From Halioglobus sp. (GTDB lineage: Bacteria > Pseudomonadota > Gammaproteobacteria > Pseudomonadales > Halieaceae), in the NCBI GenBank assembly GCA_020443425.1, contig JAGRIE010000013.1:39583-103582 (forward strand): a stretch of 64,000 nucleotides of DNA, written 5' to 3'. A program made the translations under genes and the position numbers. The notes under the pieces are model-generated. The model was not told the origin of the DNA and searched no databases. It was given only the letters and a program-made list of their open reading frames with translations. Below, one piece after another: positions 17,361-24,959 of this stretch (position 1 is the first letter of the stretch; the number at the start of each line of letters is the position of its first letter).

Positions 17361-18665
17361 ATGCTTAAAACCCTAAAGATATCGACCAGTGACCTGAGCA
17401 TTGGCATGTACGTCAGCGGGCTCGACCGGCCCTGGCTGGAGACCCCGTTTATTACCCAGGGCTTCCTGATCGAGCGCGACCAGGATATACGCGACCTGCA
17501 GAAATATTGCGAGTCGGTCTACATTGACAGCCGGCGCAGTTCGCGCCCGGGCACGGTCATTCGCCGCGAGCCGCCAGCGCGCGCCGAGCCATCCCGTCGC
17601 GGCGAGTCGGGCAAGCGGCCGATTCAGAGCAGTTCCACCGGGCTGAATGACAGACCGCGTATCCCGCTAGCCCACATTTTTTTTGATCGTGTGTTGAAGC
17701 CGTACCACGACGACAGTGGCTGGGAAGAGGAGCACCCGCGCGCGCAGCGGGCGCTGAATACACTGATTGGCGATATTGACCAAATCTATGAAAACGTCAG
17801 TGCCGGGGAAAAGCTGGATGTCATCAAGCTGCGCAAGTCGGTAGAGCCGATCGTCGACAGTATCAGCCGCAACCCCGATGCCTGCCTGTGGGTGAGCCGC
17901 CTCAAGGATCACGACCAGTACACCTATCATCACGCGCTGAGCACGTCCATGTGGGCGGTGTCGCTGGGTCGCCAGTTGGGGCTGCCGCGGCGCGACCTGC
18001 GCTCGCTGGCCATGGGCTGTATGCTGATGGATATCGGGAAATTGCGTGTCGACCCCGGCCTGTTGCAGGCGGATCGCAAGTTGACTGCCGATGAGGCCGC
18101 AGAGGTGTCACGCCACGTGAGCCACGGCCTGGCGATTCTCGATGAATGCGGGATTCTCAACCAGGACGTCATCGATATTGTGGCGCATCACCACGAGCGC
18201 TTCGACGGTTCGGGCTATCCCAAGGGCTTGGCCCGTGACCGGATTCCACCCTTTGCACGCATAGCCGGCATTGTCGATACCTATGACGCGGTGACCAGTA
18301 ACCGGAGCTACGCGAAAGCGGTATCGCCCAGCGAGGCGATCAAGTTGCTCTACCAGTCGCGGGACCAGGAGTTCCAGGCCGAGTTGGTGGAAGCCTTTAT
18401 CCAGGCGGTTGGTATCTACCCGGCGGGCACTCTGGTGGAGCTGTCCTCCGGCGAGGTCGGTGTGGTGGTTGCCGAGTACCGGACCCGGCGCCTGCGACCC
18501 AAGGTGATGCTGCTGCTGGACGCCAGCAAGCACGAATTGGAGACCACACCAGTGGTCGACCTGCAACATTTCTCGCCCGGAGACGGCGCGCCCCCTCCCT
18601 CGATCAAGAAGAGCCTGGAACCCGAGGCCTATGGTATTGATCTGTCCAGAGTGACCGGCTTATAG
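17361..18665 (+). CDS. HD-GYP domain protein with DUF3391, altered HD dyad
   Basis: A 434-residue cytoplasmic protein: N-terminal DUF3391 (about 1-65; KISTSDLSIGMYVSGLDRPW), a low-complexity basic linker, then an HD-GYP domain from about 185. HD-GYP enzymes degrade cyclic di-GMP with a bi- or trinuclear metal centre. The first metal histidines (YHHALS), RHVSHG, HHHERFDGSGYP and a late D-x-YDAVTSNR-Y block are present. The HD dyad, normally HDIGK, reads MDIGK (Met223-Asp224), so the dyad histidine is missing. Activity may be reduced or changed. A T8 run lies within codons near 17677-17684. The gene faces away from the cytochrome dehydrogenase. Confidence 0.88.
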   Translation: MLKTLKISTSDLSIGMYVSGLDRPWLETPFITQGFLIERDQDIRDLQKYCESVYIDSRRSSRPGTVIRREPPARAEPSRRGESGKRPIQSSSTGLNDRPRIPLAHIFFDRVLKPYHDDSGWEEEHPRAQRALNTLIGDIDQIYENVSAGEKLDVIKLRKSVEPIVDSISRNPDACLWVSRLKDHDQYTYHHALSTSMWAVSLGRQLGLPRRDLRSLAMGCMLMDIGKLRVDPGLLQADRKLTADEAAEVSRHVSHGLAILDECGILNQDVIDIVAHHHERFDGSGYPKGLARDRIPPFARIAGIVDTYDAVTSNRSYAKAVSPSEAIKLLYQSRDQEFQAELVEAFIQAVGIYPAGTLVELSSGEVGVVVAEYRTRRLRPKVMLLLDASKHELETTPVVDLQHFSPGDGAPPPSIKKSLEPEAYGIDLSRVTGL

Positions 18666-19246: not shown

Positions 19247-19286
19247 GGACCTGACTCTGAAACCGGCGTGAAGAAGGAGGATGTCA

Positions 19287-20312
19287 ATGGCAGCGAACAG
19301 ACCGATTCGGGTGGGTCTTATGGGCTTCGGCCAGATAGGCCGACAAATCTATCAACTGGCCTCCCTCAGTAGCGATGTTGAAATCGTCGCCGTTGCCGAC
19401 ATCGGCAAGCCGGAGATACTGCACTACCTGTTAACCTCAGAGGTGGTTGAACCGCAGCGCCATACCCTGGAGCGCAACTTTCTGGTCAACCCGCGCTTCC
19501 GGGCGCGGCTGATGCAGATCGATCGCCCACAGGAAATGCCCTGGGATGTCTTCGATGTCGATATCGTGATCGACGCTACCGGCAAGTTCGGCGACAGCGA
19601 TTCCATGGCCGCGCATCTGGCCAATGGTGCGCCCCGGGTACTGCTGCGTACGCTGCCGATGGACGCCATCGACCGCATTGTCGTTCCCGGAATCAACGAC
19701 GACAGCGCGAGCCAGGGGGATCGCATGATCTCGGCGGGTTCGCCGACGGCTTCCGCGCTGTGCCTGCTGCTGCAGAGTGTGTCCGAACAATACGCCATCG
19801 AGTGTGGCAGCATGACCACGGTACACGCCTATACCTCGGACCAGTCACTGCAGGACTACGCCGGCAGCGACTTCCGTCGCAGTCGGTCCGCCGCCAAGAA
19901 TATCATCCCCAACACCCATGATGCCGGGCGCTGGCTGGGCCACATACTGCCCGCGTTCGACGACAGGATAATGACCTGGGCGCTGAATGTGCCGGTACAG
20001 GAGGGGTGTCTGCTGGACGTCACGCTGGTAATGCGCGATCCCGAGGTGGACGCTGAAGCAATCAACCAGGCAATGCGCGTCGCCGCCGGCAAACGCAAGG
20101 GTATTGTCGATGTGGTGGAAGATCCGGTGGTGTCGTCAGATGTGATTGGCAACGCTCATTCGCTGCTGTTCGATGCCAAGGGCACGATCAAGGCGGGCAG
20201 CACCATTATCAAGACGCTGGGCTGGTATGAAACGCTGGGGCATGCAGCGCGGTTGCTGGAGGTGGTGCGTCTTTACGCGGCGCTGGGTCTGCCACAGGAG
20301 GAGCTGTCATGA
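19287..20312 (+). CDS. GAPDH-like protein lacking the catalytic cysteine
   Basis: A 341-residue paralogue of glyceraldehyde-3-phosphate dehydrogenase. The NAD-binding start is kept (VGLMGFGQIGRQIY), as are the length, the catalytic-domain histidine (His180 in TVHAYTSDQ) and the RRSRSAAKNIIP block. The active-site SCTTNC becomes SPTASA, placing Pro153 at the nucleophile position. The phosphate-site arginine of RVPVPDG is lost (ALNVPVQEG) and NWYDNEWGYS becomes LGWYETLGHA. Normal GAPDH chemistry is therefore unlikely. The start at 19287 is chosen because AAGGAGG (19274-19280) is optimally spaced from it. The stop overlaps the true gap gene by 4 bp, indicating coupled translation and possibly a mixed complex. 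Confidence 0.88.
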   Translation: MAANRPIRVGLMGFGQIGRQIYQLASLSSDVEIVAVADIGKPEILHYLLTSEVVEPQRHTLERNFLVNPRFRARLMQIDRPQEMPWDVFDVDIVIDATGKFGDSDSMAAHLANGAPRVLLRTLPMDAIDRIVVPGINDDSASQGDRMISAGSPTASALCLLLQSVSEQYAIECGSMTTVHAYTSDQSLQDYAGSDFRRSRSAAKNIIPNTHDAGRWLGHILPAFDDRIMTWALNVPVQEGCLLDVTLVMRDPEVDAEAINQAMRVAAGKRKGIVDVVEDPVVSSDVIGNAHSLLFDAKGTIKAGSTIIKTLGWYETLGHAARLLEVVRLYAALGLPQEELS

Positions 20313-21310
20313 GAATCGCGATCAATGGTTTTGGGCGTATCGGGCGCTCGGTTTTCCGCATTCTGGAGGAGCGGGATGACATCGAGGTTGTTGCGATCAA
20401 TGATCTTTTTGATTACGAGGCGCTGCGCTACCTCCTGAGTTACGACACTGTGATGGGCCCTTTCGCCGGGTCGCTGAAGCTCGAGGACAATCACTTCGTG
20501 ACCGCCAAGGGACGCGTCAAGTTGCTCAGCGAGCGCAGCCCGCTGGACCTGCCCTGGGCGGAACTGGGGGTGGACGTGGTCATAGAGTCGACCGGGGCCT
20601 TTCGCAAGCGCGAGCAGTTGCAACAGCACCTGACTGCCGGTGCCGGTCGCGTGATCCTCACCGTGCCGGCCAAGGATGCCATCGATTACACGGTGGTGCT
20701 CGGGGTCAACGAAGAGGGCCTGACGGCGCAGCAGAAGATTATCTCCAACGCCAGCTGCACCACCAACTGTCTCGCCCCGATGGCGCGGGTGCTGGATGAG
20801 ACCTTCGGTATCGAAGAGGGTGTGATTAACACCGTGCACGCCTATACCAATGACCAGCGCCTCGCCGATGTGCCCCACACCGACTGGCGCCGCAGTCGCG
20901 CGGCGGCAGAGAACATCATCCCCACCTCTACCGGGGCGGCCAAGGCGGTTGGCGAGGTGTTGCCACAACTCAAGGGCAAGCTGCACGGTATCGCCGCCCG
21001 TGTTCCGGTGCCTGACGGTTCCGTGGTGGACCTGTTTGTAAAACTGGGCAAAAAGGCGTCGGTAGCGGATGTGCACGAGGCGGTGCGGACTGCATCCGCG
21101 TCGCCCCGCCTGCAGGGTATCCTGCAATACAGCGAACAGCCCATCGTGTCCACCGACATTATCGGCAACTCGCACTCGTCGATCTACGATGCCGGCTTCA
21201 CCGGTATCACCGGTGGGCACTATCTGCGTGTGCTGAACTGGTACGACAATGAATGGGGCTACTCCTGCCGGGTATGTGATCTGCTGTCACGGCTAAGAGA
21301 CTTGACCTGA
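20309..21310 (+). CDS. gap: Glyceraldehyde-3-phosphate dehydrogenase
   Basis: A 333-residue type I GAPDH that interconverts glyceraldehyde 3-phosphate and 1,3-bisphosphoglycerate. All key parts are present: INGFGRIGR at the N-terminus, nucleophile Cys150 in SNASCTTNCLAP, His177 in TVHAYTNDQ, the arginine of ARVPVPDGS, and NWYDNEWGYS near the end. The residue after the second strand (AINDLFD) suggests NAD preference, without proof. It starts within the stop of the GAPDH-like gene (ATGA overlap), so the two are co-translated. Confidence 0.95.
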   Translation: MRIAINGFGRIGRSVFRILEERDDIEVVAINDLFDYEALRYLLSYDTVMGPFAGSLKLEDNHFVTAKGRVKLLSERSPLDLPWAELGVDVVIESTGAFRKREQLQQHLTAGAGRVILTVPAKDAIDYTVVLGVNEEGLTAQQKIISNASCTTNCLAPMARVLDETFGIEEGVINTVHAYTNDQRLADVPHTDWRRSRAAAENIIPTSTGAAKAVGEVLPQLKGKLHGIAARVPVPDGSVVDLFVKLGKKASVADVHEAVRTASASPRLQGILQYSEQPIVSTDIIGNSHSSIYDAGFTGITGGHYLRVLNWYDNEWGYSCRVCDLLSRLRDLT

Positions 21311-21424: not shown

Positions 21425-21997
21425 ATGTCCAAAGTGATCAAGCTCGTACTCTTCATCTCGTTTCTGTGCGCCGGTGGTCCCGCCGCCTGGGCCAATAGCT
21501 ACAGCAGTGCGATCAAGGCGTTCAGCAATGCCGGGGAGAGCGGGCGCTATTTCAAGACAGCCTACGGTTACGCCCTGTTCCCCACTATCGGCAAGGGTGC
21601 CTTTGTGATTGGCGGCGCCTATGGTGAAGGCAAGGTATTCGTCGGCACCCGGCACGTCGGCAATTCCACCATGACACAGTTGTCCCTGGGCGCACAGTGG
21701 GGCGGGCAGGCGTACAGCCAGATTATCTTTTTTGAGCACGAACAGGCATTCAAGGATTTCACCTCGGGCAACTTTGAGCTGAGCGCCACCGCATCGGCGG
21801 TTGCCATTACGGCCGGCGCTTCCGCCGAGGCCAATACCGGTGGCGGCACAGCGGCGGGCATCAGCGGCGGGCGCAACGACGCGGCGACAGTGTCCGGTGG
21901 CTACCGCAAGGGTATGGCGATATTTACCATTGCCACCGGTGGCCTGATGTTTGAGGCCGCCGTCGCCGGACAGAAGTTTACCTACACGCCTCTATAG
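21425..21997 (+). CDS. SYLF (YSC84-like) domain secreted protein
   Basis: A 190-residue protein with a signal peptide (about 1-24, ending AAWANS) and a single SYLF/YSC84 domain, a lipid-binding fold. Marks include the GYALFPTIGKGAFVIGGAYG segment, GGQAYSQIIFFE, and the C-terminal KGMAIFTIATGGLMFEAAVAGQKF. Bacterial members are periplasmic or outer-membrane associated, with poorly known roles. The ATG at 21425 is chosen over one at 21338 because it begins the signal peptide and has AAGG upstream. It is convergent with lutC. Confidence 0.87.
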   Translation: MSKVIKLVLFISFLCAGGPAAWANSYSSAIKAFSNAGESGRYFKTAYGYALFPTIGKGAFVIGGAYGEGKVFVGTRHVGNSTMTQLSLGAQWGGQAYSQIIFFEHEQAFKDFTSGNFELSATASAVAITAGASAEANTGGGTAAGISGGRNDAATVSGGYRKGMAIFTIATGGLMFEAAVAGQKFTYTPL

Positions 21998-22036
21998 CCT
22001 CTATAGGGGCGACGGCACCGGCTGGCCGGGGATTTC

Positions 22037-22735
22037 CTAGGCCGGGACTGCCGCGCGCGCCAGCGCAAGGGCGTCTGCGGGAACATCGCCCATCAGTATC
22101 ACATGCCATTTGCGCGGCCCGTGCGCCCCGTAGACCAGCTGGCCCTCGATATCTGCCGTGCTGGAAGGGCCGGCGATAAAGTTGATACCGCGCGGGCGCC
22201 CGGTTTTCTCCAGTTCCAGATTGATCCTGCCCCAGGCGTGCTCCATGCTCGACACCAGGTCAGCGGTGTCCACCAGCACGATGTGATGTTCCGGTAACAG
22301 GTTGTTCGCCGCCGGGTTGGACTTACCGGTCCACGTCACAATGGCGCCGGTCTCCACCACACCCAACTGGGCGAATGTCAGCGCCACCGGTTCGCCGACC
22401 TCCAGACTGCCGAAACGCGGCAGCACGCCGGCATCGCGCCAGGGCATGGCGGCGAGGCGTGGGTCGTTGCCGGCCACCAGTCGGTGGCTGCGAAAATGCG
22501 AGTAGATGTGGTGCCCAATCGCCGTGACCGCCTCGGTCCGGTTGGCCACGCAGTCCACCGTCCCCTTGTTTTTCAGCACATTGGTCAGGAAGGCCTGGCA
22601 CAGCTCTGCGGCCGGTGGCGCAGGTACCGGCGCGCTACCCAGTGCCTGGCGCTCGCGCTGGATACGTTCCGCGGGTGCTTCGCCGGTGATCTCTCGCAGT
22701 CGCGCGAAGATTTCCGAGCGGGCGCTAGCGTTCAT
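22037..22735 (-). CDS. lutC: Lactate utilization protein C
   Basis: A 232-residue LutC/YkgG (DUF162) protein, the third subunit of the LutABC L-lactate oxidation complex, which converts lactate to pyruvate with iron-sulfur proteins. Family marks are VANRTEAVTAIGHHIYSHFR, the GVVETGAIV strand, and the C-terminal GPSSTADIEGQLVYGAHGPR. It overlaps the end of lutB by 11 bp, confirming an operon lutA-lutB-lutC on the minus strand. No lactate permease or regulator gene is adjacent. Confidence 0.93.
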   Translation of the reverse strand: MNASARSEIFARLREITGEAPAERIQRERQALGSAPVPAPPAAELCQAFLTNVLKNKGTVDCVANRTEAVTAIGHHIYSHFRSHRLVAGNDPRLAAMPWRDAGVLPRFGSLEVGEPVALTFAQLGVVETGAIVTWTGKSNPAANNLLPEHHIVLVDTADLVSSMEHAWGRINLELEKTGRPRGINFIAGPSSTADIEGQLVYGAHGPRKWHVILMGDVPADALALARAAVPA

Positions 22736-24161
22736 GCTTTCCCTGTTCCCTGCGCTTCTGCTGCGCTTTGTACTGCTGCATAAAGGTCTTCCCTTCGGGG
22801 GCTGGAAAATTGCGCTGGCTGGTCCAGCCAGCGGCCAGGGGCAGGCGCTCGAAATTGCCGTGTTTGCGGCCGAACCAGTGCAGAACGGGAATCACGATGG
22901 AGGTCAGCGCATGGTAGAGCGGCGGGTGCCGGGTCAGCCAGCTGTGCAGTTTCAGTCCCAGTCGCCAGCGCGGAGCGGACAATTTTTTGCTGTTCTCCTC
23001 ATGTCTCAGATCGCGCAGCAGGTCGGGCAGCGGAATATCCGCCGGGCAGACCTCGGCGCAGCGGCCGCAGCTGGTGCAGGCATTGGGCAGCGCGTGGCTC
23101 TGTTCCAGAGAGGTCAGCAGCGGCGTCAGTATCGAACCCATCGGCCCGGTGTATACCCAGCCGTAAGCGTGGCCACCGACGGCGCTGTAGATAGGGCAGT
23201 GGTTCAGGCAGGCGCCGCAGCGGATGCATTCGAGCATCTCCCGGTAGTCACTGTCCAGGATCTCGCTGCGCTTGTTGTCCAGCAGCACGAAATGCGTCTC
23301 GATCGGCCCGTCGACATCGCTTTCCCGGCGCGGCCCGGAGTAAAAGCTGGTGTAGCAGGTCTGCGATTGACCGGTGGCCGATCGCACCAGCAGGCGCAGC
23401 ATGGCGGTCGCATCCTGTGCCAGCGGCAGCACCCGGTCAATGGTGGTACAGACAATCAACACCCGGGGCAGATTGGCGCACAGGTCCCCGTTGCCTTCAT
23501 TTGTCACCAGCATGGAATAGCCGTTTTCGGCGATCAGTGCATTGGCGCCGATGATGCCCACTTCGGCTTTCAGGAAATGCTCGCGCAGTACCTGGCGGGC
23601 CTCGCTCACCAGATCAACGGTCTCGGGCAGCTCCCGGTCGCCGAGTTTGTGTTTGGCCTGGAACAGCTCGCGGATCTCGCCGGCAGATTTGTGCAGTGCC
23701 GGGGCCACGATATGGCTGGGTGTCTCGCCGGCCTGCTGGATGATGTACTCGCCGAGATCGGTCTCCATTACCTCAAGACCAGCGCGCTGCAGGAAATCAT
23801 TCAGGCCGGTCTCTTCGGTGACCATGGACTTGCCCTTGGCGACATGCCTGGCGTCGTGCTGCTGGCAGATGTCGAGCACCAGGCTGTTGAGTTCGTCGCC
23901 ATCGCGCGCAAAGTGCACGTGGTTGCCATTGTGCACGGCTTCGTGCTCAAACTGTCCGAGATAGTACTCGAGGTGATCCAGGCTGTGCTGACGCACACGT
24001 TTCACATGTTGGCGCAGGGCGTCAAACTCAGTGAATCCCTCGACCGCTGCCGAGCGTATCAGGGGCGCGAACGCTGCGATTACATCCCTGCGCTCGGCCT
24101 GTGCAGTGTTGCCCAGGGCCGCACTGGCATTGTCGAGAAACGTATCGCTGTGCTGCTCCAC
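22725..24161 (-). CDS. lutB: Lactate utilization iron-sulfur protein B
   Basis: A 478-residue LutB protein. An N-terminal LUD (DUF162-type) domain carries the EGNGDLCANLPRVLIV segment. Two ferredoxin-like [4Fe-4S] motifs follow: CIRCGACLNHCP and CTSCGRCAEVCP, spaced as in other LutB proteins. It relays electrons within LutABC. The C-terminal 80 residues contain a hydrophobic, possibly membrane-associated helix. It follows lutA by 3 bp and overlaps lutC. Confidence 0.94.
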   Translation of the reverse strand: MEQHSDTFLDNASAALGNTAQAERRDVIAAFAPLIRSAAVEGFTEFDALRQHVKRVRQHSLDHLEYYLGQFEHEAVHNGNHVHFARDGDELNSLVLDICQQHDARHVAKGKSMVTEETGLNDFLQRAGLEVMETDLGEYIIQQAGETPSHIVAPALHKSAGEIRELFQAKHKLGDRELPETVDLVSEARQVLREHFLKAEVGIIGANALIAENGYSMLVTNEGNGDLCANLPRVLIVCTTIDRVLPLAQDATAMLRLLVRSATGQSQTCYTSFYSGPRRESDVDGPIETHFVLLDNKRSEILDSDYREMLECIRCGACLNHCPIYSAVGGHAYGWVYTGPMGSILTPLLTSLEQSHALPNACTSCGRCAEVCPADIPLPDLLRDLRHEENSKKLSAPRWRLGLKLHSWLTRHPPLYHALTSIVIPVLHWFGRKHGNFERLPLAAGWTSQRNFPAPEGKTFMQQYKAQQKRREQGKHER

Positions 24162-24164
24162 CGG

Positions 24165-24959
24165 CTACTTTCCTTTTCCAATAGCGGGGCCGTCGAACTG
24201 CATGCTCAGCAGTTCCGCGATATGGCGTACTTCGATATCCTCGCCGAGGCGCTCTGCGCGCCCGGCGATATTGAGCAGGCAGCCCAGGTCGCCGCCGGCC
24301 AGGATCCTGGCGCCGGTGGCGACAGCGTCCTTCAGTTTGTCATCTACCATCTTGCCGGAGATAGCCGGCATCTTGGCGCAGAATGTGCCACCGAAACCAC
24401 AGCAGACCTCGCTCTGCTGGAGCTCGCAAACCTCGACACCGCTGAGCTCTCGCAACAGATCGCGCGGCTGCGATTTGATCTGCAGTTCCCGCAGTCCGGC
24501 GCAGCCGTCGTGGTAGGCCACCGAAGGCAGTTTGGCGGGCGATTTTTTCCGCTTTGGCCTGATATGCGCAATGTCCTTCAGAAATACCGTGAGTTCAAAG
24601 GTTTTGGCGGCCAGTTCAAGGGCCCGGTCGCGCCATTCCCCGTCGAGCAGGGTGGGGTAGTGATGGCTGATCATGCCGGCGCAGGAGCCGGATGGCACCA
24701 CCACATAATCCGCCCCTGCCAGTAGCTGTATGACCTCCTGCGCCTGCAGTACAGCATCTTCGTAATTGCCGCTGTTGTAAGCGGGCTGGCCGCAACAGGT
24801 TTGTCGCAGTGGCACCGTCACCTCGCAGCCGGCCTGTTCCAGCAGTTTGATGCTGGCAAACGCGACCGAGGGGCGAAACAAATCTGCCAGGCAGGTGACA
24901 AAAAGCGCAACCCGCTTTTTTCGTTGTGGGGGCGAGTGTTCCCGATCTCGCTCATTCAT
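24165..24959 (-). CDS. lutA: Lactate utilization (Fe-S)-binding protein A
   Basis: A 264-residue protein with two CCG domains, the heterodisulfide-reductase/GlpC-type cysteine-rich motif: QTCCGQPAYNSG with PSGSCAG in the first half, and SEVCCGFGGTFCAK in the second. It is the first gene of the lutABC operon for L-lactate oxidation. Similar folds occur in glycolate oxidase GlcF, but the lutB and lutC neighbours settle the assignment. The first 15 residues are charged and not a signal peptide. Confidence 0.93.
   Translation of the reverse strand: MNERDREHSPPQRKKRVALFVTCLADLFRPSVAFASIKLLEQAGCEVTVPLRQTCCGQPAYNSGNYEDAVLQAQEVIQLLAGADYVVVPSGSCAGMISHHYPTLLDGEWRDRALELAAKTFELTVFLKDIAHIRPKRKKSPAKLPSVAYHDGCAGLRELQIKSQPRDLLRELSGVEVCELQQSEVCCGFGGTFCAKMPAISGKMVDDKLKDAVATGARILAGGDLGCLLNIAGRAERLGEDIEVRHIAELLSMQFDGPAIGKGK

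Follow-up and report, generated by a model that had tools for sequence, protein, structure and literature searches.

The ps-gap gene pair and its surroundings

The window, i.e. the whole stretch of 64,000 nucleotides that was analysed, carries a head-to-tail pair of genes, ps and gap, whose products are 35% identical across 327 residues. The features of the pair are as follows:

19287..20312, + strand: ps, a GAPDH-fold pseudoenzyme of 341 aa (Pfam, NCBIfam, alignment with relatives, AlphaFold2, Foldseek)
20309..21310, + strand: the partner gap, a class-I GAPDH of 333 aa with intact catalytic residues (Cys150, His177 and Arg231 of P0002; Pfam, NCBIfam, alignment)
20309..20312, + strand: ATGA, the 4 bp shared by the stop of ps and the start of gap (read from the sequence)
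19276..19280, + strand: GGAGG, 6 nt 5' of the ATG at 19287, a probable ribosome-binding site for ps (read from the sequence, its function inferred)

A second in-frame ATG is available to ps at 19281; the position of the GGAGG and the alignment with relatives favour 19287 as the start. The 4-bp overlap of ps with an intact gap, which had been pointed out in the initial annotation, is borne out by the ATGA, and similar junctions are seen in other genomes. Across the 84 pairs that were measured, the two genes are separated by -4 bp in 24, by -1 bp in 49 and by 0 to +15 bp in 11, i.e. they overlap by 4 or 1 bp in 73.

The pair of the window lies between an HD-domain gene on its 5' side and a Ysc84-like gene, followed by lut-like genes, on its 3' side. 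We compared these surroundings across 34 pairs, comprising the window, 13 related loci and 20 more, some of them with short flanks. The upstream neighbour (17361-18665) encodes an HD-domain protein with an N-terminal DUF3391 (Pfam), which we take to be of the HD-GYP type, and is found 5' of the pair in 4 of the 34 neighbourhoods. Downstream, positions 21428-24959 hold the Ysc84-like gene and then the convergent lut-like genes, the third of which encodes a CCG domain (Pfam); the names Ysc84-like and lut-like are presumptive. Clusters of the Ysc84-like type occur in 8 of the 34 neighbourhoods, and those of the lutB- and lutC-like types in 9.

Active site and family identity of ps

In ps of the window the position of the catalytic Cys is occupied by Pro153, the phosphate-site Arg is replaced by Asn234, and GWYETLGHA stands where GAPDH has NWYDNEWGY, while His180 is kept. 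To place these differences among relatives, 131 loci were reduced to 89 distinct upstream proteins, of which the 87 with at least 300 aa were aligned with 84 full-length partners. Position 153, that of the nucleophile, is Ala in 60 of the 87 ps proteins, Pro in 18, Ser in 5 and Gly in 4, and is never Cys; the initial annotation was thus correct in reading Pro153 at the Cys site, but Pro is one of several states and most relatives have Ala. The catalytic Cys of the SxxSCTT motif is accordingly found in 0/87 ps versus 84/84 partners, and the partners likewise all retain the His and Arg. A sequencing or assembly error at codon 153 is excluded in practice by the lack of Cys in all 87 distinct ps proteins. 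The loss of the phosphate-site Arg and the change of the NWYDNEWG motif, which had also been claimed from the single sequence, hold as well, with position 234 being Asn in 87/87.

Beyond the nucleophile, Thr209 of the partner is replaced by Asn209 in all 87 ps proteins, Thr211 by His in 69 and Gly212 by Glu or Asp in 72. His180, Ser152 and Asp38 are each kept in 87/87, and the residues that are fixed in ps and yet unlike gap include N209, N234 and H319. Positions 209-234 of ps were matched to the numbering of E. coli GAPDH via motif alignment; excerpts of PMC8615399 give Cys150 and His177 of that enzyme as catalytic, Arg232 as belonging to the 'Ps' site, and Ser149, Thr151 and Thr209 as belonging to the 'new Pi' site. 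Judging from this alignment, ps would have no capacity for GAPDH chemistry. The ps proteins of family f157 (L070-L072) have Ser for Cys and keep a WYDNGWGY motif, and may represent an earlier stage of the same active-site loss.

The retention of the GAPDH fold, its length and His180, as originally described, is supported by the 341-aa span, by the invariant His and by Pfam, with both Gp_dh_N and Gp_dh_C above the gathering score (59.4 and 128.6 bits) and no further domain matched. With the class-I GAPDHs (TIGR01534; PF00044/PF02800) ps thus shares fold, length, domains, the adenine-side NAD residues and the active-site His and Ser; unlike them, it is devoid of the catalytic Cys and the Ps-site Arg in 87/87 cases, and at 234 bits it falls below the cut-off of the TIGR01534 GAPDH-I equivalog (367.2 bits), which the partner exceeds with 423 bits.

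Further GAPDH paralogues are encoded in the genome of the window. Epd is, like ps, a GAPDH paralogue of gammaproteobacteria; unlike ps, the Epd-like protein of this genome (L003) keeps the Cys and scores 520 bits with TIGR01532, just below the cut-off of 530.55, against 163.5 for ps. The ArsJ-associated G3PDH resembles ps in being a GAPDH paralogue of a specialised type whose gene is paired with another; unlike ps, its representative in this genome (L004) keeps the Cys and reaches 548 bits with NF033735 (cut-off 450), against 163 for ps. An assignment of ps to either of these types is ruled out by the NCBIfam scores. Another paralogue (L005) is of the 480-residue type PRK08289, with 772 bits versus a cut-off of 431. 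L004 and L005 also exceed the general GAPDH-I cut-off, with 383 and 375 bits; hence the notion that the genome has no ordinary GAPDH besides the partner was dropped, and the partner is one of up to three GAPDHs in this 94%-complete assembly. Gap need not be the sole GAPDH in the cell, and the reading of ps as a partner subunit does not depend on its being the main one.

Distribution, descent and selection

The initial annotation had proposed a search for the same pair in other genomes, and it is indeed found there. A related-locus search recovered 13 loci, several of them named Haliea, Halioglobus or Halieaceae, and in all of them gap follows ps directly within the sequence available, which in 2 loci ends inside gap. 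Within the family of the window ps occurs in 66/140 genomes, and in the order sample it occurs in 32/390, distributed over eight families including the window's own (f1, f4, f9, f13, f32, f40, f44 and f47). In the class sample of 369 genomes it is seen in the window's own genome and, outside the order, in 3 genomes, all of family f157. These samples overlap, and the genomes in them are not independent events. A profile search of a phylum sample (349 genomes) at E 1e-80 or better matched 24, the window's own included; among the 20 of these for which loci were obtained there was no wider spread of ps, as all 19 besides the window's carry SNASCTTNC.

Among the 66 ps-bearing genomes of the family, 63 give a full-length match to the partner profile of at least 632 bits, two have a fragment on another contig (G049 and G050), and in the 66th (G120) the fetched stretch ends when only 153 aa of the partner have been read (L026). 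In the 74 family genomes that lack ps the best score is 456 bits (G122). Similarly, in the order sample of 252 genomes the partner scores at least 569 bits in 24, all of which (24/24) also carry ps, and in a class sample of 350 genomes scores above 449 bits are seen only in the window's genome and the three f157 genomes. Thus, in the samples searched, the partner-type gap is found only together with ps.

Two genomes bearing a genus code common to ps carriers, G218 (L181) and G251 (L182), have GAPDHs of 443 and 442 bits; neither is listed as a match to the ps profile, and the fetched stretch around their gap holds no ps-like gene. This pattern fits the loss or replacement of the ps-gap pair as a unit. 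G122, mentioned above, belongs to the same genus as the window; its solo GAPDH (L134, 456 bits) and that of G520 (L144, 448 bits) group together outside the partner clade.

In an unrooted tree of 79 rows, ps forms one side of a branch with bootstrap 100 and SH-aLRT 100, and the partner does likewise (100/94). Neither clade includes any of the remaining 15 GAPDHs, such as E. coli GapA and Epd and the three further paralogues of the window's genome. The join of the f157 ps proteins with the remaining ps carries a long-branch warning in this tree. We considered an independent origin of ps in f157 and rejected it: when the other ps rows are left out, the f157 ps proteins fall outside the partner clade and not beside their own gap (31 rows, quick method), and Asn209 and Asn234 are common to f157 and the other ps. 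A single origin of ps is favoured by these sequence comparisons.

The ps gene is under purifying selection and far from neutral. For this analysis we used 28 of 66 loci whose ps is at least 60% identical to that of the window, namely the ones nearest to the window's once the set had been thinned at 93% identity. By the Nei-Gojobori method, pairs with dS below 1.5 give a median pairwise dN/dS of 0.139 in ps (113 pairs) versus 0.087 in gap (112 pairs), the pairs being non-independent and dS being high. Relaxed selection, which the initial annotation had named as grounds for discarding its interpretation, is thus not seen, and the claim that ps has been retained without decay of its frame also holds. 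Pseudogene forms in relatives, named there on the same grounds, are rare, with a single frame-shifted copy (G043; L124/L125) among the 66 family genomes, next to which gap is intact. That copy, the only one seen, is either an assembly error or a recent decay. The distances among ps proteins are on average 1.52 times those among the corresponding gap products (84 pairs), and the two sets of distances correlate with a mirror-tree r of 0.92, a value expected from shared descent alone and no proof of contact.

The roughly 1.5-fold faster divergence of ps and its one broken copy would be in keeping with a decaying duplicate that still awaits loss. However, a gene in this state would hardly be encountered across eight families of an order and one outside it, with a dN/dS near 0.14 and with N209, N234 and H319 fixed in a form unlike gap. 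We regard this explanation as scarcely credible, it being already contradicted by selection and distribution.

Predicted structure, pocket and possible role of ps

The AlphaFold2 model of ps has a mean pLDDT of 87.9 when built from 14 ps rows and 11 partner rows (the 14 ps rows alone gave 70.5), and only residues 196-207, which correspond by motif to the S-loop, and the last residues fall below 50. Among the best 50 matches listed by Foldseek against the PDB, 49 are titled GAPDH and the remaining one comes from structural genomics and bears no functional name. We compared conservation across ps using pocket site sets of our own choice, for which the adenine-side NAD residues have a mean column entropy of 0.04 bit versus a column median of 0.99, the nine former catalytic and phosphate positions have 0.50 bit (the fraction of random column sets as low being 0.014), and the nicotinamide-side residues have 0.78 bit (random-set fraction 0.154), i.e. 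these last are no more conserved than random columns. This points to a remodelled, still conserved pocket in ps, where NAD, by its ADP-ribose end, or some other nucleotide may still be bound. As for the NAD or redox sensor that had been offered as one role for ps, the fixed adenine-side residues agree with it, but the nicotinamide side does not.

The other role that had been offered, a regulatory partner in a mixed tetramer, finds indirect support in the strict co-occurrence and in the separate clades of ps and partner, but not in the S-loop. Columns fixed in gap are kept in ps at 10 of 26 S-loop positions versus 34 of 126 other positions (Fisher p 0.24). S-loop conservation was consequently discarded as evidence of a shared tetramer, since the enrichment seen relative to all columns (p 0.0015) is not significant when gap-fixed columns serve as the background.

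Taken together, we consider it rather probable that ps is a catalytically dead GAPDH paralogue which serves one particular GAPDH as its obligate partner subunit and has been retained as such. On the sequence evidence, it is probably a non-catalytic subunit of the partner in a mixed tetramer. The coupled translation of ps and gap would set the subunit ratio and let the nascent subunits assemble into such a tetramer, in which ps would modulate how active or how stable Gap is, the most likely means being a nucleotide or phospho-metabolite bound in the remodelled pocket. Here we infer the complex, the ligand and the direction of control. Co-occurrence, coupling and separate parallel clades are equally expected if ps were a purely structural or chaperone-like partner that serves the folding, stability or placement of Gap and senses nothing, and the unremarkable conservation of its nicotinamide side is also compatible with this. 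On the other hand, a mere scaffold need not retain a pocket, and in ps Ser152, Asn209, Asn234, His180 and the adenine side are fixed, with the nine-site set conserved above random; accordingly, we hold the structural role to be rather unlikely.

GAPDH is the textbook example of a self-sufficient homotetramer. The chloroplast A2B2 enzyme, made up of GapA and GapB, combines GAPDH subunits in a mixed tetramer, one of the types being regulatory, as is proposed for ps; both of its subunits are catalytic and its regulation depends on a C-terminal extension, whereas ps is dead at the nucleophile. Paired non-catalytic or regulatory paralogues in hetero-oligomers are also known from the ADP-glucose pyrophosphorylase GlgC/GlgD and yeast Idh1/Idh2, whose folds and pathways differ from those of ps, with GlgD and Idh1 being examples of a dead paralogue that regulates a live one. 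Like a prozyme, ps is, at the level of sequence, the dead counterpart of a paralogue that looks live and is encoded in the same genome, and it is retained with that paralogue under purifying selection. In the trypanosomatid AdoMetDC/prozyme system, as described in excerpts of PMC5201418 and PMC6221367, the dead paralogue pairs with the live one and activates it; this enzyme is unrelated and eukaryotic, and the activation demonstrated there is conjectural for ps. The matches listed in the open-access literature, as represented by titles and abstract openings and with most subscription papers outside this scope, include no bacterial GAPDH pseudoenzyme subunit. The regulation of a live enzyme by a dead paralogue is a known principle (PMC5201418 and PMC6221367, in excerpt), and its extension to GAPDH, as proposed here, appears to be new. 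A GAPDH clade that is always seen with a coupled dead paralogue would add the redox step of glycolysis to the enzymes with pseudoenzyme subunits, and as a small two-gene system ps-gap can easily be expressed and tested.

Some genomes place the pair in a metabolic context. In L076 the gene order is a divergent RpiR-family regulator gene, which we take to be hexR-like, followed by zwf, pgl, edd, eda, ps, gap and ppc; the regulator, zwf, pgl and edd were assigned by Pfam, and eda and ppc by similarity to clusters with the Pfam-matched members L018 and L013. The zwf-pgl-edd-eda cluster recurs in L094, where the ps-gap pair is oriented convergently with it. A cluster of proteins of about 900 aa, whose tested member L013 is a PEP carboxylase (Pfam), is represented near the pair in 9 of the 34 neighbourhoods, and in most of the 34, some of which have short flanks, the pair is flanked neither by an Entner-Doudoroff gene nor by one for PEP carboxylase. 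Of the 74 family genomes that lack ps, three were inspected (L136, L138 and L139), and in each an ordinary GAPDH is situated within a hexR/ppc/pgl/zwf/eda/edd-like cluster, and therefore the ps-gap pair can occupy the same place as a conventional GAPDH. Excerpts of PMC10100682 describe the Halieaceae as abundant in coastal seawaters, and report a complete Embden-Meyerhof-Parnas pathway in 6/6 isolates of the family and a complete Entner-Doudoroff pathway in 5/6.

Where the pair is inside an Entner-Doudoroff cluster, the effect of ps would bear on the flow of carbon from glyceraldehyde-3-phosphate to PEP and oxaloacetate. In a more specific version of the subunit hypothesis, which we advance only tentatively, ps would be a dedicated allosteric GAPDH subunit. 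The remodelled active site of the dead twin in the mixed tetramer would then act as a sensor, whether for an adenine nucleotide, for the NAD pool or for a phospho-intermediate of the Entner-Doudoroff pathway, and ps would set the flux through the glyceraldehyde-3-phosphate step. The occurrence of the pair in such clusters, together with the invariant His180, Asn209, Asn234 and Ser152 and the intact adenine-side nucleotide site, could also be accommodated if ps were an independent enzyme that uses the GAPDH fold for a new chemistry and is expressed along with gap as their steps belong together. We think this unlikely, as the nucleophile position can be Ala, Pro, Gly or Ser, the nicotinamide-side residues vary too, and a merely pathway-linked enzyme does not require that the partner type never be seen without it. 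That ps might instead be a nucleotide-sensing transcription or RNA factor which autoregulates its own operon, and not a GAPDH subunit, is suggested by its position as the first gene of the pair and by the moonlighting reported for GAPDH proteins; we consider it very improbable, given that the 341-aa protein has no added Pfam domain and that the pairing with gap stays constant across differing gene neighbourhoods.

In the genome of the window, edd and PEP carboxylase are found on contigs other than that of the pair, which is not part of an Entner-Doudoroff cluster. In G013 (L137, G013:C6:1242000-1256000) an ordinary GAPDH adjoins hexR-, ppc- and edd-like genes, and the ps-gap pair is elsewhere in the genome. 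The ordinary GAPDH genes of L136, L138 and L139 are in opposite orientation inside their cluster.
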